In this document: piece after piece, positions 291 to 16,074 of the stretch | Numbering within the stretch: position 1 is the stretch's first letter | Layout: each line of letters opens with the position of its first letter | Source of the DNA: a virus | Reading direction: 5' to 3' (one strand) | Virus record (IMG/VR): IMGVR_UViG_3300030333_006291 | Coordinates: 1-35,615 of that record | Length of the DNA stretch: 35,615 nucleotides | Made by a program: the position numbers and the translations under genes | Notes under the pieces: generated by a model | The model's database searches: none | Seen by the model: the letters and a program-made list of their open reading frames with translations, nothing else | Told to the model about the DNA's origin: nothing

Positions 291-725
291 TTAGTTGGTG
301 GGCTTCGGTGGACACTTGAACGGTTCGACCTTCAAGCGTGGCTTGCCGATGCGGCGAAGGTAGCTCGAGGTTAGCAGCCCCGCACTGTCGGAATATCTTC
401 GCAGCTGGTCCATGATCTGCACGCCGTCGGACAGCAGGTCGATCTTCCCCGCGCAGACGTCATCGTGGTCCCACAGGCTTCCGTCCTCTCGCAGCACCCA
501 CGCCGGGAACAGACGCAAGCGCAGGTGCTTGATCTTCAGCCTCTGCTGCACGCTCAACGTTCCGCGTCCGACCTTCAGCTCGAGGTGCCCCGTCCACATC
601 GGTGAGTAGACCTGCAGGTCGGGCCACCCCGGCTCCTGCATCGCGTGACCGTGCACGTTGAACACCATCGCGCCGGCCTTGGTCAGCTTGACCCGCAGCA
701 CTGTTTGAAACTTCGACTCACGCAT
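291..725 (-). CDS. VRR-NUC-type nuclease
   Basis: A 144-residue protein with the layout of the VRR-NUC family, a PD-(D/E)XK nuclease fold related to Holliday junction resolvases. Visible motifs are an early acidic residue (E3), the pair PD at 35-36 in GWPDL, the E-x-K at 49-51 in LELKVG, and the downstream LSVQQ near 57-61. These are the metal-binding and catalytic positions of the family. The ATG at 725 was preferred over the upstream ATG at 782 because AGGAGG sits 11 bases before it and it overlaps the polymerase stop by only 8 bases. In phages such nucleases act in recombination, repair or DNA processing; the exact substrate cannot be read from the sequence. Confidence 0.75.
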   Translation of the reverse strand: MRESKFQTVLRVKLTKAGAMVFNVHGHAMQEPGWPDLQVYSPMWTGHLELKVGRGTLSVQQRLKIKHLRLRLFPAWVLREDGSLWDHDDVCAGKIDLLSDGVQIMDQLRRYSDSAGLLTSSYLRRIGKPRLKVEPFKCPPKPTN

Positions 726-2577
726 CGGCCCACGACCTCCTTGACGTTCCTCTATCCCACTCGATCGGTACTCGCATTCCACCGCACGACTCGCGGAGCA
801 CGTCGAGCACTCCCTCCTGCCACTTCGGGTCCTCGATGATCTCGGGCGGCCCCTCGATCAAGAGCTCGTCGTGCACGTTCGCGATGATGTGGCAGCCCGC
901 GAGCTCCGCGCTGTTGTGCAGCGCCACCATGCGGTTCTTGATGATGTCCATCGCGCAGCCCTGCACGAGCGAGTTGAACGCCTTGTGCGCGCCGACCAGC
1001 GGGAGATGCCTTCGCCTGCCGAACAGGTTGCGCACCCACCCTCTCCGCTTGGTCGCGTCCGTCGCTCTCTCCGCGGTCGACTTGAGTCCGGGAAGTCGCT
1101 CGTGATAGTCGCGGAAGATCTCGGCGGCGCGGCGCTCGCACCGCTTCGCGTACTCACGGGCTCGGTCCTCGTGTCGAACGGTGTCGTCGGCGTCGATGGC
1201 CGCGCCCACCTCCTCCATGATCTTCTTGTTGCCGCTGAGCTCCTGCGTGATCCGCCGCTTGCCCGCGCCGTAGGCCATGGCGAAGTTGATCGTCTTCGCC
1301 GGCGATCGGTCGATGCCGCAGAGGTCGGCGACCCACTGGTGAAAGTCCGTGCCGCGGTCGCCTGCGTACGCTTGAATGACGTCCTCGTCCTTGATGTAGT
1401 GAGCGATGACCCTGAACTCGATCTGAGAGGCGTCCGTGCTGAAGAACGCCCCTCTAGGAACGATCAACGACTTGGCCCGCTTGTTGAACTGCTGGCTGTT
1501 CGGGTCCGAGCAGCTCATGCGACCGGTGCGCACGAGCTGGTTGTAGCTGGGGTGCATCACGCCGTCGACCGCCTTGTCTAGGAACGAGTCGCAGAAGAGC
1601 CCCTTGAACTGGGACTCCGTCCTGTACTCGAGGAGGGTGTCGAGCACCTCCCTAGCCCTGTCGTCCGTGACCACCTCGGGGTGCCCCGCGTACAGCTTCA
1701 GCGCGTGCTTGTCGAAGCTCGGTCCGCCGTTCTCCGTTCTGGCCAACACCGGCAGGCCGAGCTGGACGCACAGAACCTCGTGCATGAACTGCGGACTGTT
1801 CACGAGCTCGAGACCGGTCCACTCTCGAACGCGGTCGCCGCAGTCCACCATTCGCCGCAGGCTCTTGACCTGCTCGATGCGGCACCGCTGCTCGTCGATC
1901 ATCATTCCGCGCTGCTCCATGCTGAAGAGCACCTTGGTCAAGGCCTGCTCCGTCGCCCACAGCTCCTCGGCCTCCTCGGGCAGCCGCTCCATCAGCCACC
2001 TGTACAGCTCTCGGTTGGCCAGAACGTCGACGCACGCGTACTCACCGACGAGATCGCTGGGAGCAGCCCCGTAGTCCTTGCTGCCGGCGCCGCGGAGCCA
2101 CGCCTTGAGGCGAACCTCCTCGCCCATGTCGAGGCCGAGCCAGTCACGGCACACCGGCTTCAACGAGTGAGTCCTAGCGTCGCTGTCGATCATCTTCGCC
2201 AGCACCACGGTGTCGGCCATCGTGCACGAGACGTCGACGCCGTCCGCGGCCAAGAAGTGCGCGTCGAACTTCACATTGTGGTTGGTCCACTGGCCGGCGG
2301 TGCGGAGGATGTCCCCGCACCACTTGGCGACGACCGCCGGATCCAAGTTCGGCCCGCTTTGGTGGCGGCACGGCGCGTACCACGCTCGAGGGTCGTCGTC
2401 CACGGTGACGGCCACGCCGGCGATCCGATGTCCCTTCCACGGGTTCAGCGCCATCTCGTTGTCGTTGAAGCTCGTCGTCTCCACGTCCATGAAGACGTTG
2501 CGCGCTCCCGTGAGATCGGGCAGGTCTTCGGCGCGCTCGACGATGATCGCGCGCCCCGTGGGCGTCAAGACCTCCAC
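718..2577 (-). CDS. polA: Family A DNA polymerase with 3'-5' exonuclease
   Basis: About 619 residues, close in layout to T7-type replicative polymerases, with no 5'-3' exonuclease domain. The proofreading domain shows Exo I (FMDVETTSF), Exo II (NVKFDAHFL) and Exo III (YACVDVL). The polymerase domain shows motif A (TDASQIEFRV), motif B (RSPAKTINFAMAYG) and motif C (NVHDELLIE), so all catalytic carboxylates, the proofreading acids and the motif B Lys, Phe and Tyr are present. The start is uncertain. I use a GTG at 2577; a TTG at 2568 would give a 4-base overlap with the deaminase stop but sits too near GGAGG. The longer frame to 2700 would overlap the deaminase extensively and encodes unrelated sequence. 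It is the phage replicase, next to primase-helicase and nucleotide enzymes. Confidence 0.93.
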   Translation of the reverse strand: MEVLTPTGRAIIVERAEDLPDLTGARNVFMDVETTSFNDNEMALNPWKGHRIAGVAVTVDDDPRAWYAPCRHQSGPNLDPAVVAKWCGDILRTAGQWTNHNVKFDAHFLAADGVDVSCTMADTVVLAKMIDSDARTHSLKPVCRDWLGLDMGEEVRLKAWLRGAGSKDYGAAPSDLVGEYACVDVLANRELYRWLMERLPEEAEELWATEQALTKVLFSMEQRGMMIDEQRCRIEQVKSLRRMVDCGDRVREWTGLELVNSPQFMHEVLCVQLGLPVLARTENGGPSFDKHALKLYAGHPEVVTDDRAREVLDTLLEYRTESQFKGLFCDSFLDKAVDGVMHPSYNQLVRTGRMSCSDPNSQQFNKRAKSLIVPRGAFFSTDASQIEFRVIAHYIKDEDVIQAYAGDRGTDFHQWVADLCGIDRSPAKTINFAMAYGAGKRRITQELSGNKKIMEEVGAAIDADDTVRHEDRAREYAKRCERRAAEIFRDYHERLPGLKSTAERATDATKRRGWVRNLFGRRRHLPLVGAHKAFNSLVQGCAMDIIKNRMVALHNSAELAGCHIIANVHDELLIEGPPEIIEDPKWQEGVLDVLRESCGGMRVPIEWDRGTSRRSWADA

Positions 2578-2927
2578 TTCTCGACCTCCAACCCCGCGTT
2601 CCTGATGATCCGCACGCCCTGCTTGTCTCGGTAGTCGTGCGTGTACGTCACCCGCTTGATCCACCCGACCGCGACGATCAAGTGCGCGCACTGAACGCAC
2701 GGCGCAAGCGTCACTTCAAGGTGCGGGTGCTCGCGCCCCTCCTTGAGCATCTCCATGATGAGCTTGGCCTCAGCGTGCATGCAGCCGCAGTTGCCGACGT
2801 AGCCTGAGCACGTCGATCCGTTCGCAGGTCCGTTGACCGCGATCTTTGGTCCAAAGCGGGCGGCCACAGGTCTCCGCCTGCACTTGCTCGTCACCGGTTC
2901 CAGAGCTCTGTCCATCGTTCTATCCAT
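2565..2927 (-). CDS. dCMP/cytidine deaminase family protein
   Basis: A 120-residue zinc-dependent deaminase. The signature is HAEAK at 51-55 (zinc-binding His and proton-shuttling Glu) and APCVQC at 75-80 (PCxxC, two zinc cysteines). In phages this family usually converts dCMP to dUMP. It sits between a P-loop kinase and the polymerase, in line with dNTP pool remodelling. Two in-frame ATGs (2927 and 2915) are possible, both inside the end of the kinase gene; the longer frame to 3149 was rejected because it overlaps the kinase widely. Cys40, Cys47 and Cys49 just before the HAE might form a second metal site, as in some dCMP deaminases. Substrate is inferred from family and context. Confidence 0.85.
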   Translation of the reverse strand: MDRTMDRALEPVTSKCRRRPVAARFGPKIAVNGPANGSTCSGYVGNCGCMHAEAKLIMEMLKEGREHPHLEVTLAPCVQCAHLIVAVGWIKRVTYTHDYRDKQGVRIIRNAGLEVEKWRS

Positions 2928-3403
2928 CTCGCTATGTCTCCGTCTGTTGGCCAGCCCTTGATGCTGACGTTGTGAACCACGTCCACGTACTGCTCGCCGC
3001 GGTTCGAAGCTTCTGCGATCGAGCGGTACGCGTCGTTCGCGTCGAGGATCAGCTTGTTCGAGTACATCTCGGACTTCGGGCTCTTGAGCAGTCGCTCCTC
3101 GAGCCAAGGCCTCTCCGCCACCAAGCACACCACGAGGCAGCCTTGCCACCGAAGGTACGCTTGAACCTGTCGCATCACCTCGGCCGGCGGGTACGTCCCG
3201 AGGCCCAGCATGCGACCGTAGACCAAGGCACCGAGGTGGTACCGGTCCTGCACGCCGCGGAAGACTCGCTCGACGTACTCGGTCGAGTGATCGAAGTCTT
3301 CCGGCGGCTTGCTCATGTGCCTGCGCTGGACGCTCGCCAGCTCGCAGACCCTGAGTGCGGCGGTCGTCTTACCGACGCCGTCCGCGCCTTCTAGTATCAG
3401 CAT
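2891..3403 (-). CDS. P-loop nucleotide kinase, dNMP-kinase-like
   Basis: A 170-residue protein opening with a Walker A loop, GADGVGKTT at residues 6-14, as in thymidylate and other deoxynucleoside monophosphate kinases. A later QDRYHLGALVYGR stretch recalls the DR(Y/H) substrate-binding region of that group. The ATG at 3403 has a strong binding site (GGAGGAG, spacer 4-5) and puts the P-loop where a kinase should have it, so the longer frame to 3487 is rejected. The gene lies after a hydroxymethylase-like gene and before a deaminase. It could phosphorylate a normal or modified dNMP, as T4 gp1 does. A 5-hmdU DNA kinase is the alternative, since that enzyme is also a P-loop kinase and its usual partner domain appears at 14580-15386. 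Confidence 0.75.
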   Translation of the reverse strand: MLILEGADGVGKTTAALRVCELASVQRRHMSKPPEDFDHSTEYVERVFRGVQDRYHLGALVYGRMLGLGTYPPAEVMRQVQAYLRWQGCLVVCLVAERPWLEERLLKSPKSEMYSNKLILDANDAYRSIAEASNRGEQYVDVVHNVSIKGWPTDGDIARWIERWTELWNR

Positions 3404-3515
3404 GGTACTCCTCCATCTGTCTGTCCGCGCGCGCACCGGCGACGCACAGCGAGTAGAACACGACCAAGGCGACGATGCCCGCGGCACCGCACGCCACTCC
3501 TAGAACGAACTCCAT
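3369..3515 (-). CDS. Small single-pass membrane protein
   Basis: A 48-residue frame whose ATG overlaps the TGA of the hydroxymethylase gene (TGATG), a coupling seen elsewhere in this genome. Residues 3-27 form one hydrophobic segment (VLGVACGAAGIVALVVFYSL within it) and the tail is basic (RRRGRRR). The last 35 bases overlap the kinase start. An N-out or N-in topology cannot be decided. It resembles small phage membrane proteins in size, but a holin role is unsupported because no other lysis gene is nearby. Confidence 0.55.
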   Translation of the reverse strand: MEFVLGVACGAAGIVALVVFYSLCVAGARADRQMEEYHADTRRRGRRR

Positions 3516-4360
3516 CACAGGATCTCCTCCGCCACCATTCGCAGCATCGAGTTCTCGTCGAGCATCTCCGTCACGTCGTGACCGAAGTTGCGTCTCCTGA
3601 ACTCCACCATGACCAGCGCGGCGCACTCGTCGAGCATCGCCAGCGACCCCTTCGGGATCGAGCCGTCGGGCGGGTGGTCGCCGTTGGACTTCCACGATCG
3701 AAGACAGTCCGCCGCCTTCACCGCGTTCCGCTCGTAGAGGTGCATCGAGCCGGCTTGGTGCGTGTACCACCCGAGCTTGAGACTCAAGGCGCCCGCGATC
3801 AACCGCTGGATCATGGTGAAGCAGAACATGTCGTACGGAAGGCCGAGCCATGCGTCGTTGCTTCTCATGGTCGCGATCAAGTTGAGCCTGTCGTCCTCTC
3901 TCAAGAACTGAAGGCTCAGCGTGCACGGAACGTCGGGTCCGTTCGCGTCGGCCTGCGGGATGTCCTTCGACGGCGACCAGCAGCTCATCACCGCCCTTCG
4001 TGAGTCCGTCCCGATCTCTCTGAGCACGTAGCCCATCTGACCGTAGTCGGACCACCGCTTGCCGTACGCGCCGTGAGCCCTTCCGTCTTCCTCGAGGAAG
4101 CGCTCGTACTGCGGGGCGTAGTGCTTCATCCAACCGTCGTCGGTGCCCGAGAGGTACCAGATCAGCTCAGCGCACGCGTACCTCAGCGACGCCTTGCGGT
4201 TGCCGTCGTTGATCCACGCCTTCGTCGGGTCGGTGAGCGTCCAGCTTTGACCTTGAACCTCGCGGCAGTCGCCGTCTCTGCTGTGCCGCATCGGTCGACC
4301 GATCAGTTCGTTTATCACGCCGCGCCAGAGCTCGCGGCCGGTGTCGTGCGTCCTGTTCAT
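3515..4360 (-). CDS. Thymidylate-synthase-fold nucleotide hydroxymethylase, probably dCMP type
   Basis: A 281-residue member of the thymidylate synthase superfamily. Catalytic Cys146 lies in VPCTLSLQF, Glu65 in AELIWYLSG matches the conserved Glu58 of E. coli ThyA, Arg166/Asp169 lie in MRSNDAWLGLP, and His207/Tyr209 in MHLYE match the nucleotide-binding pair. The residue equivalent to ThyA Asn177, which reads the uracil ring, is Asp177 here (LGLPYD). T4 dCMP hydroxymethylase has Asp at this place, so a cytosine nucleotide is the likelier substrate and 5-hydroxymethyl-dCMP the likelier product. ThyA His147 is Thr. It overlaps the pyrophosphatase gene by ATGA and precedes the kinase and deaminase. 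An ordinary dTMP synthase is less likely but not excluded. Confidence 0.8.
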   Translation of the reverse strand: MNRTHDTGRELWRGVINELIGRPMRHSRDGDCREVQGQSWTLTDPTKAWINDGNRKASLRYACAELIWYLSGTDDGWMKHYAPQYERFLEEDGRAHGAYGKRWSDYGQMGYVLREIGTDSRRAVMSCWSPSKDIPQADANGPDVPCTLSLQFLREDDRLNLIATMRSNDAWLGLPYDMFCFTMIQRLIAGALSLKLGWYTHQAGSMHLYERNAVKAADCLRSWKSNGDHPPDGSIPKGSLAMLDECAALVMVEFRRRNFGHDVTEMLDENSMLRMVAEEIL

Positions 4361-4830
4361 CGCTGCGTCCTCAACACCATGGCCGACTCCAGCACTCGAC
4401 GAATGTCCGGCTTGAAGTATCGCTCGCCCTTGGCCGGCTTGTGACCGCCCACGTCCTTGCTCATGTTGGAGGCGTGCACCTCGTCACACAGCGCGTCGAG
4501 AGGGAGTCCGAAGGCGGCGGCCGTGCCGGTCACGACGTAGGCCAAGTCCGCGACGCCGTCGGCGGTTTCGACGACGTCCCTCATCGCCAAGCCGTGCACC
4601 AACTCGCCGAGCTCTTCGACGATCAAGTGAACTCGGTCGATTCGAAGGTCACAGCCCACGACCTCGGTCAAGTCTCGCCTGACGTCTTCGAGCTTCTTCT
4701 CGACCTGCAGCAACAGGAGTTCCACCAGATGCTCCGCACCTTCGTACTCCTCCTTGACGCGCACGTCTTGGTTCAGCGTGAACCCTTGGGTCTCCGCGAA
4801 CTCTCTCACCTGTCTCATCAACTTACTCAT
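4357..4830 (-). CDS. MazG/dCTPase-like all-alpha NTP pyrophosphatase
   Basis: A 157-residue all-helical protein with the metal-binding motifs of the all-alpha NTP pyrophosphatases: EELGE at 72-76 and DGVAD at 91-95. HASNMSK at 119-125 is typical of phage nucleotide pyrophosphohydrolases of this group. Such enzymes cleave a (d)NTP to the monophosphate and PPi; T4 gp56 (dCTPase/dUTPase) and MazG are members. Here it directly precedes the hydroxymethylase gene with an ATGA overlap, so a role in supplying dCMP or dUMP to that enzyme is a natural inference. The start overlaps the primase-helicase stop by one base (TGATG). Confidence 0.8.
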   Translation of the reverse strand: MSKLMRQVREFAETQGFTLNQDVRVKEEYEGAEHLVELLLLQVEKKLEDVRRDLTEVVGCDLRIDRVHLIVEELGELVHGLAMRDVVETADGVADLAYVVTGTAAAFGLPLDALCDEVHASNMSKDVGGHKPAKGERYFKPDIRRVLESAMVLRTQR

Positions 4831-7844: not shown

Positions 7845-8681
7845 CTAGAACTCGCCGCTGTCGGCTGAGCCCTCAGAGCCGTCGTCCCCTTGGTCGACGG
7901 CGAGGCGCGATGCGTCGTGCAGCGCCTTGAGGTCGTCGTGGAAGCCCTTGAAGGTCTCCACCTCATCCTCCTTGATGAAGGGTGACTCACCGCCGGTGGG
8001 GTTGGCGAAGTCGATGCCCCACCAAGTGTTCCCTCCGCGGTCGCGTGTCGCGGTGCCGAACTCCCACACCTGACTCCACAGTGGAGCGACGTGGGCGCCC
8101 GCCTTCCGCAGCAGCGCGGCAGAGCAGAGGTTCTTCCCGACGTTCAACTCGCCCTTGGCGAAGCTGATGGCGACGGGCGTCATGCCCAACTCGTGGTCGC
8201 CGTAGATGACGCCGGCGAAGTTGAGGTGCTCAACGTGGCGCATCTTGTAGGGATCACTCTTGGGTCCTCCGGGGTACACCTCGAAGCGATCGTCCGCACT
8301 CCGCGACTTGCGAGCGATGTCGCCAGCCTTGTCGAACGAACGAGCCTCGATCGGCGAGCCGCCTTGATCGCGGCGGTCCTTCCACGAGATGAACTCCACG
8401 AAGAAGAACAGCGGCACGAACAGGAACGACGCACGCGGGTCAGCGACGAGCGCGTTCCCGGGCTGAAGCACCACGGCTCCCTCGCCGAACTGCTCCTTCA
8501 CGTTTGAGTCGCTCATCGCCTGAACGACCTTGATGCGGGACAGAACGCGATAGCCCTTGAGCTCCTCGACGGACGTGTCCTCCGCCGCGATCTTCTCGAG
8601 GAAGGACGGCGTAACTTTGGTGACCTCGCTTCCGCGAGAGTCGTTCTTCTCCACCTTCTTGGTGGACTTCTTCTTTGCCAT
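7845..8681 (-). CDS. Candidate single-strand DNA-binding protein
   Basis: A 278-residue protein I do not recognise by family. The N-terminus is very basic (KKKSTKK), the middle mixes beta-like and aromatic-rich segments (SFLFVPLFFFVEF), and the C-terminus is an acidic tail, DQGDDGSEGSADSGEF, ending in Phe. An acidic tail with terminal Phe is the hallmark of T7 gp2.5 and bacterial SSB, where it contacts polymerase and helicase. The gene lies just upstream of the primase-helicase, which fits an SSB role. This is inference from the tail, size and neighbourhood; a different replication or recombination accessory role remains possible. Confidence 0.5.
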   Translation of the reverse strand: MAKKKSTKKVEKNDSRGSEVTKVTPSFLEKIAAEDTSVEELKGYRVLSRIKVVQAMSDSNVKEQFGEGAVVLQPGNALVADPRASFLFVPLFFFVEFISWKDRRDQGGSPIEARSFDKAGDIARKSRSADDRFEVYPGGPKSDPYKMRHVEHLNFAGVIYGDHELGMTPVAISFAKGELNVGKNLCSAALLRKAGAHVAPLWSQVWEFGTATRDRGGNTWWGIDFANPTGGESPFIKEDEVETFKGFHDDLKALHDASRLAVDQGDDGSEGSADSGEF

Positions 8682-9238: not shown

Positions 9239-9437
9239 TCTCTCCTCTCTCGATGTGCTTCGACCACTCCTCTGGGGTGATGCCGGTCATGATGAACTCG
9301 CGGTCGTCGGGCGACAAGTGCGGGAACACGTCTTGAACAAGCTCACCACGCCGGTGACGCTCCAATTGCTCCTCGGTGCAGTCGATCACGCGAACGCGAA
9401 CGCGGCCGTCGAGGATGCTCTTTCTACGCAGCAGCAT
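9222..9437 (-). CDS. Unknown small protein
   Basis: About 71 residues, rich in Arg, Glu and Asp. I start it at the ATG at 9437, which overlaps the TGA of the previous gene (TGATG) and follows GAGGTGGAG; a GTG three bases earlier at 9440 is an equal alternative. It overlaps the next gene by 17 bases. HLSPDDREFIMTGITPEEW contains two SPDD/TPEE helix caps, suggesting a compact helical protein. No function can be assigned. Confidence 0.6.
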   Translation of the reverse strand: MLLRRKSILDGRVRVRVIDCTEEQLERHRRGELVQDVFPHLSPDDREFIMTGITPEEWSKHIERGENGRPR

Positions 9438-9772
9438 CACTCCACCTCTCGGCTGAAGGAGGGATGATGCACCGTTCGCTCGGCGTACTTGGCCGTGCGG
9501 GCGTCGAACAGCAGGATTCGACAGCGACCGAACTTCGCCATGACGTACGAGAGCGCGAGCGCCACGATCACGTTCTGACCGGTCATGGCAATGAAGTCGG
9601 TGTCGGGGTCGAAGTCCTCGAGCCGCTCCTCGATGAATGCCATCCCGGCGTCCGTGTTGAACATGGACACTCGACCTTCGGGGCTGCAGTAGCGGACCTG
9701 TCCGAAGGTCACGGCGCCCGCTGTGTTGAAGCGCCCGTTGGGGGACGCAAAGACGTAGACTGTTGAGTTCAT
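9437..9772 (-). CDS. Unknown 111-residue protein
   Basis: A compact alpha/beta-looking protein that begins with a beta-strand pattern (STVYVFAS) and contains FIAMTGQNVIVALALSYV, followed by a strand-like RCRILLFDART. The mix of hydrophobic strands and an Asp-rich loop (DFDPDTDF) suggests a small globular domain, but I do not recognise a family. It starts 4 bases after the SNF2 helicase stop, with GAAGGTG as likely binding site, and shares stop/start bases with the next gene. Confidence 0.6.
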   Translation of the reverse strand: MNSTVYVFASPNGRFNTAGAVTFGQVRYCSPEGRVSMFNTDAGMAFIEERLEDFDPDTDFIAMTGQNVIVALALSYVMAKFGRCRILLFDARTAKYAERTVHHPSFSREVE

Positions 9773-9776
9773 TTGC

Positions 9777-11804
9777 TTACACCTTCAGGTCGAGGACCGA
9801 GTGGAGAATATCCTTGATGTCGAGGCTTGCCTGCGCGTTGGCCAACTTGCCCTGCACGCGCTGACGAATGTCCTCGTCGATGGTGCCCGGCACCGTGAGG
9901 TCAGTGATGCGGACGGGCATGCGCGTTCCACGACGGTGCGCGCGGTCTTCTGCCTGTCCACGAAGGATGGCCGACCAGTTCTGCGAGAAGAAGATCTCGT
10001 GGTCGGTGTACATGTCTGAGTTCTCGTCGTACCCGAGGAGGTTGAGACCCTCTCCCGCGGTCTGCGGGTTGAGGATCAGCACCTTGAGACTGTCGTCGCC
10101 GTTGAAGCGGCGCACCAGCTCGTCGCGCTCGCTCTGCGGAGTCGCGCCGTAGTACGTCCCGCACTCGATACCCTCAGCCTCGAGGCGCTCCGCGATCGCG
10201 CGGATGTCCTCGGTGAAGCACGCCCAAATGAGCGTCTTGCCCTTCGGGTCGCGGTCTTCCGCGGTGAGGAGGTCGACGACGGCGTCGATCTTAGGGTTGG
10301 ACGTGCCGAGGCGCTTCGTCTGCTTGGCGCGAAGCTCTTCACCGGTGTCGGGGTCGACGTTGGCGTCGATCACGATGTGGCCGCTGGTGATCTGCGCAAG
10401 ACGAAGCAACTGCGTGAGGATGTTCTGCGCAGTGACGGGGTCGACGTCGCCGCTCATCTTGTCCTCGATCTCCGCCGCGAGATGCTCAGCCATCGCCTTG
10501 TATGCGGCGGACTGCTCCTTCGTCATCTCGACTTCGTGCAGGTCATAGACCTTGTCCGGCAGGTTGAGTCCGGCGTCCTCCTTCGTCACAGAGAAGGTCA
10601 CGCGAGCGAGGCGCTCCTGCAGCAGCGGAACGTTCTTGACGCCCTCGAGGCGCTTGATGCCGTTCTGACCGGCGTCAGTCCACACGCCGTGGAACGAGCG
10701 GAACGCGCTGAACTTGGAGAAGCCACTGTATCCGTGGCCGAGGAACTCCAACTGCGTCCACAGATCCATGAGCGAGTTGCCGATCGGCGTGCCGGTGAGG
10801 ATCATGCGCTGCGCACCGCAGTCACGAAGACCCTCCATCGCCTTCCAACGCTTCGTCGTCGCGCTCTTGATGAAGTGCGACTCGTCGAGAATGATGAGGT
10901 CCCACAAGTTCTTGCGGCCGAACGCGTGCATCGACGCAACGAGTGAGTCGTATCCGATGATGACCGCCGAGAACGCGCAGTCCTCCTCGGTCGTGATGGC
11001 CTGCACGAGCGAGCGAATCCGCTTCTCCTGCGTGCCGCGGATGACGGACACCTTTCCGGGCAGCACGGTGAACTTCGTGATCTCATGCTCCCAATTCAAC
11101 CGGACCTGATTGGGCACGACGATGAGCGCGCGCAGCATCTTCTTGGGATCCTTCTCACGGAGACGCTTCGCCTCCATGCAGATCCGCTGAACAGCCACCG
11201 CCGTCTTGCCGGTGCCTCGATCCATGAAGAGACCGGTGCCTTCCTGTCCGAGACTCATCTGCACGGCGACGCGCTGATAGTCAGACAAGGGGAATTGAGG
11301 GTGGTCGATCCAGTCGGCCGGAAGATCGGGCGTCGACTTGTTGATCTTGTAGGCCGCCTGCATCGCGGCCCTCGCATCCTGCGCCTTGAAGCGCTTGACG
11401 AGGACCTCCATCTTGAGGCGAGCGTCTTCGCCCACCCACTCGATCCTGTCTGCGGGAATGCACGACTTGACCATGATGGCGGTCAAGTCGGTTCCGCCAA
11501 GGCGATACTGATTCCGCTTCTCGAAGTCGCGAGCACCGAGCCACTTGGACTCGGGAACGCGGTTCGAAAGGAACGCGGTCGTCGTGTGGCAACTGAGGGC
11601 CTTGTGGGTGTACCACTTACCCTCGGCGTTCTTGCGATAACGAACGACCTCGGCGATGAAGTCCTTGCCGTCCTTGTCGAGGGAGATGCGCAGGCGCGCG
11701 TTCTCCATCATCTTGATGGGCTTGAGCGCGTGTCCCGTCGCCCGCGTGAGCGGGTCGATGACCGCGCCGGGAAGGTTAGCTGCCGTGTTCATTGAGTTCG
11801 TCAT
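9777..11804 (-). CDS. SNF2-type superfamily 2 helicase/translocase
   Basis: About 675 residues. The SF2 core starts near residue 170 (PLSDYQRVAVQMSL), with Walker A MDRGTGKTAVAV near 190-200, motif II as DESH in LIILDESHFIK near 305, motif III region LTGTPIGNS, and motif VI GQAEDRAHRRGT near 610. DExH combined with QxxxRxHRxG is the SNF2/Rad54 pattern. Phage members are thought to move along DNA to remodel replication, recombination or transcription complexes. The roughly 150-residue N-terminal part is unrecognised. The ATG at 11804 follows the stop of the glycosylase-like gene by two bases; the longer frame to 11969 overlaps that gene and is rejected. Confidence 0.88.
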   Translation of the reverse strand: MTNSMNTAANLPGAVIDPLTRATGHALKPIKMMENARLRISLDKDGKDFIAEVVRYRKNAEGKWYTHKALSCHTTTAFLSNRVPESKWLGARDFEKRNQYRLGGTDLTAIMVKSCIPADRIEWVGEDARLKMEVLVKRFKAQDARAAMQAAYKINKSTPDLPADWIDHPQFPLSDYQRVAVQMSLGQEGTGLFMDRGTGKTAVAVQRICMEAKRLREKDPKKMLRALIVVPNQVRLNWEHEITKFTVLPGKVSVIRGTQEKRIRSLVQAITTEEDCAFSAVIIGYDSLVASMHAFGRKNLWDLIILDESHFIKSATTKRWKAMEGLRDCGAQRMILTGTPIGNSLMDLWTQLEFLGHGYSGFSKFSAFRSFHGVWTDAGQNGIKRLEGVKNVPLLQERLARVTFSVTKEDAGLNLPDKVYDLHEVEMTKEQSAAYKAMAEHLAAEIEDKMSGDVDPVTAQNILTQLLRLAQITSGHIVIDANVDPDTGEELRAKQTKRLGTSNPKIDAVVDLLTAEDRDPKGKTLIWACFTEDIRAIAERLEAEGIECGTYYGATPQSERDELVRRFNGDDSLKVLILNPQTAGEGLNLLGYDENSDMYTDHEIFFSQNWSAILRGQAEDRAHRRGTRMPVRITDLTVPGTIDEDIRQRVQGKLANAQASLDIKDILHSVLDLKV

Positions 11805-11806
11805 GA

Positions 11807-12235
11807 CTACGCCACCCGGCCGTTGGGCCAAAAGTAGTTGATGGAGGGCGCTTCGGACCAACCGAGCGCGCCGTAGTGACTGAACTGCTTGTACAGCAGC
11901 GCCGCACGATGCGATGAGTGGAGACGCTCGTCGCCAAGCCACTCGGGCATCTCGGCCGTGTAGTACCACGGGGCGTACGCTTCAATGCGCGGACGCATGT
12001 TGTCGACGTAGCCACGAACGTCGTGCCACTCGCGGCACATGGCGACACCGTACTGCACGAGCGCCGGCTGCCAGCCGCGCCACATGAGAACGGCGGGATG
12101 CGTGGTCCAGCCTTTCGTTTCGCCGTTGAGGGCGCGCAGGATCTGGAACGTTTCGACGCGCTGCTTGCCGAGGCGCTGGCGGTCGAGAGATGCGGCGACT
12201 TCGGTGAAGTCCGCCAAGGGGAGGAAGGTCTGCAT
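11807..12235 (-). CDS. Pyrimidine-dimer-glycosylase-like protein
   Basis: A 142-residue protein that begins MQTFLPLADF and continues with LDRQRLGKQRVE at 17-28 and HPAVLMWRGW at 46-55. These are the features I associate with the MSMEG_6572-type proteins annotated as pyrimidine dimer DNA glycosylase/endonuclease V, distantly related to T4 DenV. Such an enzyme would cut the glycosyl bond at UV-induced dimers and nick the strand. I choose the ATG at 12235 because it gives the family N-terminus; the frame open to 12325 would run through the promoter region. The context, with DNA ligase, UDG-like and SprT genes just upstream, supports repair. The assignment rests on recalled family likeness, so moderate confidence. 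Confidence 0.6.
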   Translation of the reverse strand: MQTFLPLADFTEVAASLDRQRLGKQRVETFQILRALNGETKGWTTHPAVLMWRGWQPALVQYGVAMCREWHDVRGYVDNMRPRIEAYAPWYYTAEMPEWLGDERLHSSHRAALLYKQFSHYGALGWSEAPSINYFWPNGRVA

Positions 12236-12271
12236 GCTATTGCTATGGGTTGGGCCCCGAAGGGCGGAAGT

Positions 12272-12283
12272 GGGCACGTGCCC
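12272..12283. promoter_or_regulatory. 12-bp perfect palindrome, candidate operator
   Basis: GGGCACGTGCCC is a perfect palindrome placed about 13 bases downstream of the -10 hexamer, so it covers roughly positions +6 to +17 of the transcript. A dimeric repressor could bind here; as RNA it could also form a short hairpin. It lies in the 108-base gap 12236-12343, which otherwise holds only the promoter. Confidence 0.4.
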
Positions 12284-12295
12284 GTTGGGTCTTAT

Positions 12296-12304
12296 CTTAT
12301 ACCA
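12296..12304 (-). promoter_or_regulatory. Extended -10 promoter
   Basis: On the coding strand the sequence reads TGG TATAAG: an extended -10 (TGn) followed by a 5-of-6 match to TATAAT. A poor -35 is acceptable for extended -10 promoters. It lies in a true intergenic gap after the ligase stop and before the glycosylase-like gene, and would drive the SNF2 helicase and replication genes. Predicted start of transcription is near 12289. Confidence 0.55.
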
Positions 12305-12343
12305 TAACGGCGCGACAAAGTACACCTTGAGCGCGCTGTTCTT

Positions 12344-13198
12344 TTAGTCAAGAAGTTGGTCGTAGGTGCACTCCCACGCCGGCTTGTCGTCGCGCCAACG
12401 AAGGAAGCGAGGGAAGCGGAGCGCGCCTCTGTTCTGAAGGCCTTCGTGCTTCACCTCAACAACCTTGCCGAGCACCTCGTCCTCGTCCATGTCGCGCCAC
12501 AGTGAGTCGCCGCCGATGCCGACCTTCCCGCAGTCCACCATGTTGAGTCCCTTGAACACCGCGATCTTCAGCGCGCCGAGTCGCCCTTCGTGTTTGCCTT
12601 GGCCGGGCTCTGTCCCGACGACGATGCAGTCCGCGGACTGCCACCGCTTGACCTTGTACCAACCGCGGTAGTGGCCCTGCTTCAGCATGAAGCCCTCGAT
12701 GTCGAGAGCAGAAGCGAGCGCGCTCAGTTCACCCTCGCTCTCGGGCCAATCACTCTCGTGCTCCGGTGGAAGGAAGTCCAAGTGGCCGAGGATCGCGTCG
12801 CGACGCTCAAAGCTCACGTCTCGGAGGTCGACCTTCGCCGCGAACGGGACCGCGAACGGTTGGAACCGAACGCCGACCCCGCCATTCGCCATTCGCACCG
12901 CAACCTCTGACGCGTAGTCGCCGGGGATGTACAGTTCACCGTCGAGCACCGTGCCGTCCGGCATGTTCGCAATGGCCGTGATGTCGCGCCGCTCGAGGCA
13001 TTCCATCATCTTCGGCCACAGGTCCTCACCGTGCGACTTGCGCCCCACGGCCCACACGTTCTTGCGTCCATCGCGGACCACGGTGACTCTGAAGCCGTCG
13101 AGCTTGTGCTCGCACCGCTTGATGCCACCGATCTTGGCGCTCCACTTCTTCGGTCGGACGCGCTGGTCCCAGCGGACAAAGTGCTCGACGTTCTTCAT
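12344..13198 (-). CDS. ATP-dependent DNA ligase
   Basis: A 284-residue minimal ligase that seals nicks through an enzyme-AMP intermediate. Motif I is EHKLDGFR at 30-37, with Lys32 as the nucleotidylated residue. LDGELY at 85-90, motif IV EGFML at 168-172 and motif V WYKVKR at 180-185 follow. The OB domain ends with RFPRFLRWRDDK at 261-272, the C-terminal motif VI-like signature. Length matches minimal viral ligases with only the nucleotidyltransferase and OB domains. Its ATG overlaps the TGA of a 55-residue gene. The neighbours are repair genes, so it probably seals repair and replication nicks. Confidence 0.92.
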   Translation of the reverse strand: MKNVEHFVRWDQRVRPKKWSAKIGGIKRCEHKLDGFRVTVVRDGRKNVWAVGRKSHGEDLWPKMMECLERRDITAIANMPDGTVLDGELYIPGDYASEVAVRMANGGVGVRFQPFAVPFAAKVDLRDVSFERRDAILGHLDFLPPEHESDWPESEGELSALASALDIEGFMLKQGHYRGWYKVKRWQSADCIVVGTEPGQGKHEGRLGALKIAVFKGLNMVDCGKVGIGGDSLWRDMDEDEVLGKVVEVKHEGLQNRGALRFPRFLRWRDDKPAWECTYDQLLD

Positions 13199-13371: not shown

Positions 13372-13860
13372 CTATATGCAGGTCCTATGTCGGTACGTTC
13401 TACCCTCGTACTTCGCCATCCGGTACTGTCCGGGGCCGAGGAGTATCTCTTCCCCACAGACGCAGCACGTCCACGGGTATAGCTTCTTGGGTCGCTGCGC
13501 TTTCGGCGTCGCGAGTTCGTGGTACCGCTCACCGTTGCACCCAATCTCCAACGCGACGCGTTGCCACGTTGCGTCGTGTCCATGCCCCGGCGTCAACACG
13601 TGCGCGATTTCGTGCAGCACTGTGTTGCGGAACTCGCTCTCGATGTTCGCTTGGTTGCGGCGGTCAGTCCATATCTTGATCGAGAAGCGAATGCGTCCGC
13701 TGTGAGGCCGCGCGTTGCCGGCGGCCCTCGTCATGTTGCGGCTCCAGTCGTAGTGGATCATGTCCAGTCGAGACGCATGCTCCGGAAACTCGTTCTTCAG
13801 GCGCATCAGCTCGCGAATCGCCACCTCGTGCAGACGCATGATGATCGTGGTCTCATCCAT
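13372..13860 (-). CDS. SprT-like zinc metalloprotease
   Basis: A 162-residue protein with HEIAH at 83-87, a Gly-rich loop PGHGHDATW at 91-99 supplying the third zinc ligand, and a C-terminal zinc ribbon (Cys132/133 and Cys135, then His158 and Cys161). This is the SprT/Spartan layout. Family members degrade proteins crosslinked to DNA. Length is right for the SprT domain plus ribbon. It overlaps the UDG-like gene by 8 bases and precedes the 55-residue and ligase genes, forming a repair operon. The natural substrate in the infected cell is unknown. Confidence 0.85.
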   Translation of the reverse strand: MDETTIIMRLHEVAIRELMRLKNEFPEHASRLDMIHYDWSRNMTRAAGNARPHSGRIRFSIKIWTDRRNQANIESEFRNTVLHEIAHVLTPGHGHDATWQRVALEIGCNGERYHELATPKAQRPKKLYPWTCCVCGEEILLGPGQYRMAKYEGRTYRHRTCI

Positions 13861-14404
13861 TGAACACCTCCCTCAAGAAGTGCTCTGCATGCGCGCGGTT
13901 GTGCGGATCGTTCCACCAGCGAACTATGCCCGAGGGGTGCGGCATGACGGAGATGAAGTACTCGGGGTGAACTTCGCGCCACTGCATCCACGGGTGGTCG
14001 CCAACGCCGCAGACCTTCGCGGTGGCGCGCCCGAGGAGGATCGTGTGCTTACCGCGCAGGAAGGGGACCATCTTCATCCACCCCTCCTCAGCGGACCGCA
14101 CGGGGAAGAAGTCGCCCTTGCCGGTCAGCGACGGCCCGGGCCACCAATCCACTAGGTTCCCGCGCAGCACGCGTCGCTGCAACTCTCCCTCCTCGAGACC
14201 AGCGAGTCGTTCAAGCCGGTCTCCGACGCGCCCCGTGATGGCGAGCGCTCTGCCGCGCTTGCGGCAATCCTCGCATGTGCATCCCCACTTCAAGGGGTGC
14301 GCCGAGGCGCTGCGAGGCGGCGCCTGTCCGATGATGGCGATCTTTGCGTCGTGCGGGCCGACGAGCGGCTCACGCATCCAATCTTCTCTTGTTCTTCGTT
14401 CCAT
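13853..14404 (-). CDS. Uracil-DNA glycosylase superfamily protein
   Basis: A 183-residue protein with the two key signatures of the UDG superfamily: a first motif IIGQAPPRS at 24-32 (in the place of GxxPG) and a second motif MPHPSG at 154-159 near the C-terminus. LRGNLVDWWP near 80-89 and a strand HTILLGRATAK at 120-130 fit the fold. GCTCEDC at 41-47 clusters three cysteines and could bind metal, as some UDG families do. It could remove uracil or a modified base and start base excision repair. The usual catalytic Asp/Asn of motif A is not evident, so activity is uncertain. The ATG is preceded by AATAGC and by GGAGGG inside a small hairpin. Confidence 0.7.
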   Translation of the reverse strand: MERRTREDWMREPLVGPHDAKIAIIGQAPPRSASAHPLKWGCTCEDCRKRGRALAITGRVGDRLERLAGLEEGELQRRVLRGNLVDWWPGPSLTGKGDFFPVRSAEEGWMKMVPFLRGKHTILLGRATAKVCGVGDHPWMQWREVHPEYFISVMPHPSGIVRWWNDPHNRAHAEHFLREVFNG

Positions 14405-14579: not shown

Positions 14580-15386
14580 CTAGGCGCCGTCGTACCGTTG
14601 CTTGGGTACTCCGTCGCCAAGACGCGCGCGCTCGTACTTGTCGAACTCGCAGAGTGAGTGCTCAATCTCCCGCATCTCGAACGGCAGCCCGCTCTGTGAG
14701 TGCCACCTGTCGAGAGGCAGGTACTGCGGTGCGAGATCGAGCAACTCCATCATTGAGCCGTTGTTCGGCTTCATCCCGAGTCGCTGCAGTCCGCGCTTGG
14801 ATCCCGGTCCCACGTTCGCCCACGTCATGGGGTCGCGCCACGGGATGTTCAACTCAAAGCGCAGATCGGTCACGATCTCGTACGCGATGAAGGGACCGAC
14901 GCATCGGTACTTCAGCAGAAGGTTGAAGGCGTGCTCCAACCTCTCCTCTGCGCGCATCTTCGACTCGAGTTCAACGCGGTCGTTCGCAATGTCTCCAAGC
15001 GAGCGAAGGTTGTCGCGCATCGTGCCGTTGTGCATGTGGCAACCGGTGAACACCTTCGCGCCCGATCGCTCCACGTCGCACATTCGATCGACGAGTTGGT
15101 CGTGCGTCTCGCACCACCCGATGTTCTCCGCGTGCTCCGCTCGATTGAACATGCGGTACCAAGCGACGTTGAAGATCGTGTCGGCCTGCGGCATCCCGCG
15201 GCGAGTCATCGACCGCAGCGCGCGCGTTCCCGTGTCCAACTCTCTGAACACGTTGGTGAACTTGTAGCGACGCATGATCTCGTCCTTGGTCCACGGCTTG
15301 GGTTGCCCCGCGCTTCTGCGCTGCCATATCCGGTGGCGCTCGCGGATCCAAGAGAAGAAGCCGTCTTTGCTGCTGGTCTTCCTCAC
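14580..15386 (-). CDS. HMUDK-helical / aGPT-pyrophosphorylase family protein
   Basis: A 268-residue helical protein. The N-terminal block FFSWIRERHRIWQRR at 10-24, then PKPWTKD at 29-35 and YKFTNVFREL at 41-50, plus GPFIAYEIVTDL at 163-174 and VGPGSKRGL at 191-199, are the conserved blocks I know from the helical domain linked to 5-hmdU DNA kinases and alpha-glutamyl/putrescinyl-thymine pyrophosphorylases. These DNA-glycosylase-like domains act in thymine hypermodification in phages such as phiW-14 and SP10. No P-loop is present in this gene, so it is a stand-alone helical domain. It overlaps its upstream gene by ATGA. Whether it modifies a base, or which one, cannot be read from sequence. 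Confidence 0.72.
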   Translation of the reverse strand: MRKTSSKDGFFSWIRERHRIWQRRSAGQPKPWTKDEIMRRYKFTNVFRELDTGTRALRSMTRRGMPQADTIFNVAWYRMFNRAEHAENIGWCETHDQLVDRMCDVERSGAKVFTGCHMHNGTMRDNLRSLGDIANDRVELESKMRAEERLEHAFNLLLKYRCVGPFIAYEIVTDLRFELNIPWRDPMTWANVGPGSKRGLQRLGMKPNNGSMMELLDLAPQYLPLDRWHSQSGLPFEMREIEHSLCEFDKYERARLGDGVPKQRYDGA

Positions 15387-15709
15387 GCCGTCGCTCCCTC
15401 GGTCGCCTCAAGCAACCGCTCACGCGACTCCTTGTCGCCGGGAAGACGGTCGGTGATCCACTGAATCACCGCTTGCGGCGTCACCATCGACACCTCTCCG
15501 CCGGCGTCCGTGACGATCGACTGCCACGTCGCCTCCATGCGGTCCTCCGTGGCGCGCTCCTCGGACTTGAACACGTACGCGACGAGGGAGAGGGAGTGGT
15601 ACTTGATGCACAGTCCCTCCGCCCACGGGCACTCCGGCCTTTCGTTCGCTTGAAACTGTAGGTACTCTTTGACGCCCTCGGGCATCATGGGCCATGCGAT
15701 GTCTTTCAT
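15383..15709 (-). CDS. Unknown 108-residue protein
   Basis: The ATG at 15709 overlaps the TGA of the previous gene (ATGA), and the stop overlaps the next start in the same way, so the gene is firmly placed. The product has aromatic-rich segments (KEYLQFQ, YHSLSLVAYVF) and an acidic C-terminus. The longer frame to 15937 is the shadow of the coiled-coil gene. I do not recognise a family. Its coupling to the HMUDK-like gene may mean a shared task, but nothing shows what. Confidence 0.65.
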   Translation of the reverse strand: MKDIAWPMMPEGVKEYLQFQANERPECPWAEGLCIKYHSLSLVAYVFKSEERATEDRMEATWQSIVTDAGGEVSMVTPQAVIQWITDRLPGDKESRERLLEATEGATA

Positions 15710-16074
15710 GATTCGTCCTCTAGGTCTGCTTCGAGTTTCGCGAGTTCCGCTCGCTTGGCGTTGACCGCGGCGACCTTCGCCTCGAGTCGTTCCTGTCTCC
15801 TCTCCTTGTTCGGTCCGGGAGGACCTGAGGGGTTGAGGATCTGCTGCTTCGCGCGCTTCGCCGCCCACAGCATCTTCTCTGCCCTCTCCGCTTGCGCAGG
15901 TGCACGCTCCGCGTCCTTTCGCGCCTGCGCCTCCCACGCGTCGAGTCGCGCACGTTCCTTGGCGATGGTCTCAAGCGTGTGCTCTAGACCGTACTCCATC
16001 AGTTTCGCGGACTGCAGGAGCGCCTCCGCGAACTCGATCCGCTCGTCGATCTCGTTGGGTACCTTGCGACTCAC
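15706..16074 (-). CDS. Unknown coiled-coil protein
   Basis: A 122-residue, strongly helical, Ala/Glu/Arg/Lys-rich protein. It reads as two long helices (about 8-85 and 97-122) separated by a Pro/Gly break, NPSGPPGPN, at about 83-91. The start is a GTG overlapping the previous TGA (GTGA); an upstream extension in the same frame would overlap the previous gene. It could be a scaffold or oligomerising accessory protein. No family recognised. Confidence 0.65.
   Translation of the reverse strand: MSRKVPNEIDERIEFAEALLQSAKLMEYGLEHTLETIAKERARLDAWEAQARKDAERAPAQAERAEKMLWAAKRAKQQILNPSGPPGPNKERRQERLEAKVAAVNAKRAELAKLEADLEDES

Follow-up and report, generated by a model that had tools for sequence, protein, structure and literature searches.

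The gene at positions 14,580–15,386 of the window (the whole 35,615-nucleotide stretch of viral DNA analyzed here), on the minus strand and with a GTG start, encodes a stand-alone protein of 268 residues from the HMUDK_hel family (formerly aGPT-PPlase1), with a predicted HhH-glycosylase-like fold and no P-loop. Our preferred reading, to which we give a probability slightly above one half, is that of a subunit which flips out and presents the base when 5-hydroxymethyl-pyrimidine DNA is first tailored, and which works with interchangeable enzyme partners. It draws on the family, the fold class, the conserved residues, the association of the family with tailoring cassettes, the exclusivity and swapping of these cassettes, and the hydroxymethylase residue type; from these we infer that the protein binds DNA, flips a base, and presents it to a partner, as well as what that partner is and that the base may be cytosine.

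Membership in the HMUDK_hel family is genuine and far beyond chance. The Pfam profile PF18723 matches the ORF with an E-value of 3.2e-44 and 151.8 bits against a cut-off of 25, and the match is near full length, with residues 7–256 placed on profile positions 4–276 of 281. It is the sole Pfam match, and PHROG 2396 matches as well (E 2e-52). The original prediction had assigned the protein to the HMUDK-helical/aGPT-pyrophosphorylase group and had seen no P-loop in the gene; the profile search bears out the assignment, and no Walker A motif is present anywhere in the 268 residues. In an alignment with 14 environmental homologs, nearly all invariant residues of the family are kept in the window protein: E16, R17, the PWTxD motif, N45, R48, D51, R78, N81, D174, D185, W189, the GPG, RG, and CE motifs, D249, K250, R253, and G259. 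The departures are A116 to C and one conserved Lys set against a gap. The ADDT family (PF18724) has no Pfam match in the protein or elsewhere on the contig, and a sequence search of the PDB matched no solved structure. A small upstream gene (15,383–15,712, minus strand), coding for 109 residues of no family, overlaps the HMUDK_hel start by 4 bases.

The AlphaFold model of the window protein is all-helical, with a mean pLDDT of 85.8 and a pTM of 0.84. When compared with solved structures by VIA-align, it is best matched by PaMx11 gp46 (PDB 8z2m), with a Z-score of 10.8 and an r.m.s. deviation of 4.0 Å on 214 aligned residues, followed by the AGOG 8-oxoguanine glycosylases, queuine-salvage DUF2419, OGG, AlkA, Mag2, and MutY (Z from about 10 to 4.5). 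This list is coherent, with a top Z-score that is moderate and below the value of 13 advised for all-helical models; Foldseek alone found nothing significant in the PDB for the same model (best E 0.39). At this moderate Z-score, the protein is predicted to adopt the HhH DNA-glycosylase fold. The Lys of lyase-type glycosylases is absent from its HhH motif, as judged by inspection of the motif. PaMx11 gp46 is a 5-PmdU glycinyltransferase (PUGT), which puts glycine onto 5-phosphomethyl-dU in DNA, and belongs by Pfam to the ADDT family. The HMUDK_hel and ADDT profiles align with each other at the HhH motif and at a C-terminal E-x-E-x-x-LC motif (hhalign, 89%, E 2.3e-6), a match that is weak with few ADDT sequences and significant with more.

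HMUDK_hel is a separate gene in phages M6, PaMx11, ViI, and PhiW-14, Rhizobium phage RHph_I65, and Microbacterium phage Golden, and it stands alone in essentially all 108 HMUDK_hel ORFs that we collected, among which two Walker A matches, within a GLRRLGKS stretch, look like chance. Fusion to a kinase is seen only in SP10, as a 637-residue "5-hmdU DNA kinase" (Foldseek E 2e-9, BFVD). The expectation that this helical domain accompanies a P-loop kinase thus holds in fused form for SP10, whereas elsewhere the domain is a gene of its own. A kinase of about 190 residues, of or near PF18748, lies directly upstream of HMUDK_hel in M6 (gp55, 35% identical to the window protein) and in PaMx11 (gp50); a PF18748-like kinase of the same size lies upstream of it in RHph_I65, one small gene away, and a P-loop kinase of another family directly precedes it in Golden. 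The kinase-like proteins of M6 and PaMx11 (L019 11,420–11,983 and L023 11,414–11,983) carry the misleading RefSeq name "terminase small subunit." In ViI (a 157-kb genome, where Vi01_130c matches PF18723 only), the kinase maps to 38.2 kb, some 49 kb from HMUDK_hel (about 88 kb), so that a kinase far from HMUDK_hel is a known arrangement. The stand-alone, kinase-distant state of the window gene is therefore mostly ordinary.

The HMUDK_hel relatives carry two main kinds of tailoring cassette. Among 50 HMUDK_hel-bearing viral records, each searched whole and many of them fragments, the TAGT glycosyltransferase (PF20691) is present in 24, the PF18748 kinase in 11, and ADDT in 11 (kinase or ADDT in 13), and none of the 50 combines TAGT with kinase or ADDT. 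When the loci are clustered at 60% HMUDK_hel identity, 11 are of the TAGT type and 21 of the kinase/ADDT type, with no overlap (Fisher p 7e-4, in a test that ignores the remaining relatedness). Two loci considered as carriers of both TAGT and ADDT (L037 and L038) were discarded, the ADDT match being HMUDK_hel itself. The median distance from HMUDK_hel is 85 bp for TAGT, which is less than 1 kb away in 54 of 56 cases, and 283 bp for the PF18748 kinase; a hydroxymethylase is nearby in 84 of the 106 collected loci. Since glycosyltransferases adjoin HMUDK_hel about as often as kinases do, it is probably a general helper; the same HMUDK_hel residues are invariant in the TAGT and kinase/ADDT classes. 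On an HMUDK_hel tree, a quick one with open forks, the cassette type needs at least nine changes and the window falls into a supported clade with both kinds, which implies that the cassettes have been swapped repeatedly. The cultured and complete Brevibacterium phage LuckyBarnes has the gene order TS-TAGT-TAGT-HMUDK_hel and no PF18748 match in its genome.

Other genes occur near HMUDK_hel. A glycosyltransferase-like family without a Pfam match (c14) is represented by L017 12,659–13,603, with homologs in L003, L005, L012, L030, L032, L036, and L040. Its model best matches T4 BGT with a Z-score of 13, a low-confidence model (pLDDT 65) that we use as support only. Because this GT-B, T4-BGT-like gene can coexist with the kinase, as in L030 and L032, only the split between TAGT and kinase is exclusive. 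In L007, where neither kinase nor TAGT was found, HMUDK_hel is followed two genes further downstream by a Mom-family gene (12,317–13,159, PF25680, E 4e-20), which may represent another, third type of tailoring cassette. L017 has a gene with a weakly sulfotransferase-like product (11,515–12,288, GSGRCGTS motif, PF17784, E 0.014) that is flanked by HMUDK_hel and the hydroxymethylase. PF18748-like kinases of the window lineage are found within longer proteins, of 378 residues in L121 (18,780–19,916, which also has a methyltransferase domain) and 412 residues in L119 (18,002–19,240), both genes adjoining SPASM radical-SAM genes. HMUDK_hel relatives are further present on 14 bacterial or archaeal genome contigs (L103–L116), two of which, from Erythrobacteraceae and Sphingomonadaceae (L109 and L114), have a common neighborhood in which neither tailoring cassette was found.

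No PF18748 kinase, ADDT, or TAGT was found on the linear 35.6-kb contig, a genome fragment, and Pfam scans of the family-less neighbor genes returned no transferase. Seven syntenic relatives have a stretch of 6–13 kb between HMUDK_hel and the VRR-NUC gene, which holds a tailoring cassette where examined, and every one of these records shows TAGT or a PF18748-like kinase near HMUDK_hel. On the window contig, the genes that come after HMUDK_hel encode UDG, SprT, and ligase, and the family A DNA polymerase gene (718–2,700, minus strand) leads directly into that of a VRR-NUC-like nuclease (291–782, minus strand), where the contig ends. The tailoring enzymes of this virus are either encoded on the unsequenced part of the genome or lost. 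Elsewhere on the contig, the products of 7,845–8,681 and 9,437–9,772 resemble gp34 and gp32 of phage Pam3 (PF23977 and PF23992).

The TS-fold pyrimidine hydroxymethylase expected in HMUDK_hel genomes is encoded at 3,515–4,360 (minus strand), next to a MazG-like nucleotide pyrophosphohydrolase (4,357–4,830, minus strand; Pfam and PHROG). A dCMP-deaminase-like protein, whose real start is probably internal, is encoded at 2,565–3,149 (minus strand; Pfam scan). The best solved-structure matches of the hydroxymethylase are CMP 5-hydroxymethylases. It carries Asp177 at the base-discriminating position (Asn177 in TS, Asp179 in T4 gp42), where Asn selects uracil and Asp cytosine, a role of the residue that is established for TS and T4 gp42. 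SPO1, M6, PaMx11, ViI, and PhiW-14 have Asn there, and the T4 dCMP hydroxymethylase has Asp; one alignment puts T4 off by a residue, and BLASTP pairs the window Asp with the T4 Asp. Asp is found in every syntenic relative examined, including the kinase-bearing G018 and G022, and Asn in the other HMUDK_hel phages where the motif was found. A dUMP-type enzyme with Asn would be expected in a 5-hmdU DNA kinase system; by its Asp177 the window enzyme appears to be of the dCMP type. Because it has this residue rather than the dUMP-type Asn, the window lineage may modify cytosine. The tie to thymine hypermodification that had been proposed is doubtful here because of this cytosine-type Asp.

It had also been pointed out, correctly, that the only small P-loop kinase recognized on the contig lies 11 kb from HMUDK_hel beside the TS-fold gene, and that the kinase function might be split between the two. 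This kinase (2,891–3,487, minus strand, likely start at the ATG near 3,403) shows only weak similarity to thymidylate kinases (Pfam and PHROG), has no match to PF18748, and no BLASTP similarity to M6 gp54. Within the phage collection it is most similar (47% identity) to a protein of ctIqW946, a complete 56-kb genome that is syntenic with the window (polymerase, deaminase, kinase, hydroxymethylase, MazG, primase, helicase, ligase, and UDG) and in which HMUDK_hel is absent. Relatives of this kinase coexist with a separate PF18748-like kinase in L030 and L032 and with TAGT in L028, L037, and L044, at a median of 8.5 kb from HMUDK_hel, to which they are unlinked. The gene belongs to the polymerase/hydroxymethylase block and its product is probably a nucleotide-pool (hydroxymethyl-dNMP) kinase, not a DNA kinase; we rejected it as the HMUDK_hel partner, and a kinase split over these two genes is improbable in the extreme. 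A true PF18748-type kinase on the missing part of the genome, with HMUDK_hel serving kinases only, has a better claim and is still unlikely. Such kinases are near HMUDK_hel in M6, PaMx11, and RHph_I65 and fused to it in SP10, the closest relative of the window (L027/G018) has one downstream of HMUDK_hel, and the window is a fragment; however, more than half of the collected relatives have TAGT and no kinase, and the complete LuckyBarnes genome is without a PF18748 kinase.

A role in repair or exclusion, with HMUDK_hel working as a DNA glycosylase alongside the neighboring UDG to excise wrong or unmodified bases, would fit the HhH-glycosylase fold and two neighbors. The UDG-superfamily gene adjoins HMUDK_hel directly downstream (13,853–14,404, minus strand, PF03167, E 2e-9), as had been noted, and a pyrimidine-dimer DNA glycosylase (11,807–12,325, PF03013, E 1e-22) is nearby. 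However, a relative of the UDG is present in ctIqW946, which has no HMUDK_hel, and a search of close relatives that carry HMUDK_hel found none, so that the link between the two genes was dropped. With the lyase-type Lys missing and HMUDK_hel tied instead to hydroxymethylase and tailoring genes, we consider such a role very improbable. The suggestion that the domain does something other than complete a kinase fares well in one part: recognition of a modified base is favored by the HhH fold and the kinase-free glycosyltransferase cassettes, whereas work beside the UDG is not. Lookalikes of the pyrimidine-dimer glycosylase (cluster k7) directly precede HMUDK_hel in many loci of the TAGT type, as does a 47% relative in G022. 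The main rival of the presenting role is that HMUDK_hel is itself a transferase and catalyzes a tailoring step, for instance by loading the hydroxymethyl with a phosphate, a pyrophosphate, or some other group, with the kinase or glycosyltransferase acting before or after. Its homolog PUGT/ADDT (gp46) is a catalyst, about a dozen charged or polar residues are invariant in both cassette classes, the family name reads "5-hmdU DNA kinase," and PhiW-14 is known to have an hmU intermediate that is pyrophosphorylated (PMC5977210). On the other side, HMUDK_hel has no nucleotide-binding motif, and two chemically different classes of partner would already do the chemistry; we regard a catalytic HMUDK_hel as a serious contender, though a somewhat improbable one.

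In the presenting role, HMUDK_hel would be a stand-alone, catalytically repurposed protein of DNA-glycosylase fold that binds phage DNA containing 5-hydroxymethyl-pyrimidines and flips out the base for presentation to another enzyme, which acts on the hydroxymethyl group. In phages of the M6/ViI type, the partner would be a P-loop 5-hmdU DNA kinase, with an amino-acid transferase acting next; in many others it would be a TAGT (GT-A) or T4-BGT-like (GT-B) glycosyltransferase. In the window, the hydroxymethylase would form a 5-hydroxymethyl-dNMP, probably derived from dCMP as suggested by Asp177, the small kinase would help to raise it to the triphosphate, and the polymerase would incorporate it; HMUDK_hel would then act after replication, together with a partner whose gene lies on the missing part of the genome. 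The absence of HMUDK_hel from SPO1, which was searched and has a dUMP-type hydroxymethylase, counts for this role. Against it, residues R17, N45, R48, D51, R78, N81, D174, C246, E247, K250, and R253 could equally form an active site, the family is called a kinase domain in Pfam and UniProt, a hint that biochemistry has been published, and T4 glycosylates hmC without HMUDK_hel (also searched). The contig without a tailoring enzyme, the Foldseek search of the PDB without a significant match, and the VIA Z-score below 13 weigh on the same side. A broader version is possible but doubtful in our view: HMUDK_hel would be a general 5-hydroxymethyl-pyrimidine presenter, and not a kinase domain, swapped between kinase/amino-acid and glycosyltransferase cassettes, which in the window lineage acts on 5-hydroxymethylcytosine, so that in the kinase-bearing members (G018 and G022) cytosine would be phosphorylated and then carry further decorations.

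From a hydroxymethylase of the Asp type in a lineage with kinases, one would predict hypermodifications based on cytosine, and to our knowledge nobody has looked for any of this kind. If HMUDK_hel does present modified bases to transferases that are unrelated to one another, it would amount to a portable DNA-decorating tool and its Pfam name would need changing. A 2026 study of 753 phage genomes that have DNA glycosyltransferases counted 288 with TAGT but neither of the usual alpha- and beta-GT enzymes, and proposed novel transferases for them (PMC13216743). The hydroxymethylase-TAGT-HMUDK_hel operon offers a concrete missing partner, and LuckyBarnes and M6 are cultured phages.

Compared with known systems, the window protein is of the same Pfam family as M6 gp55, PaMx11 gp50, and ViI Vi01_130c, stands alone like them, and has the same invariant residues. 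M6 also encodes a UDG-like protein, gp48, annotated as hypothetical and a relative of the UDG-superfamily protein of the window. These three phages differ from the window in having a PF18748-type kinase and, by Pfam, ADDT as well in M6 and PaMx11, none of which is seen on the window contig, and an Asn-type (dUMP) hydroxymethylase where that of the window is Asp-type. In the SP10 5-hmdU DNA kinase, HMUDK_hel is one domain of a long fused protein, whereas the window gene encodes the domain alone. The AGOG, OGG, AlkA, MutY, and DUF2419 proteins have the all-helical overall fold in common with the window protein; it differs from them in that its HhH motif lacks the lyase-type Lys by inspection, its sequence matches no solved structure, and its genomic context is one of base modification rather than repair. 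PaMx11 gp46 (PUGT) is at once its closest solved structure and, by profile-profile comparison, a distant homolog, but belongs to PF18724, which the window protein does not match. LuckyBarnes gp38 is a stand-alone HMUDK_hel protein (E 5e-68) like that of the window, in a complete genome with no recognizable kinase, and, unlike the window gene, it adjoins two TAGT genes and an Asn-type hydroxymethylase.
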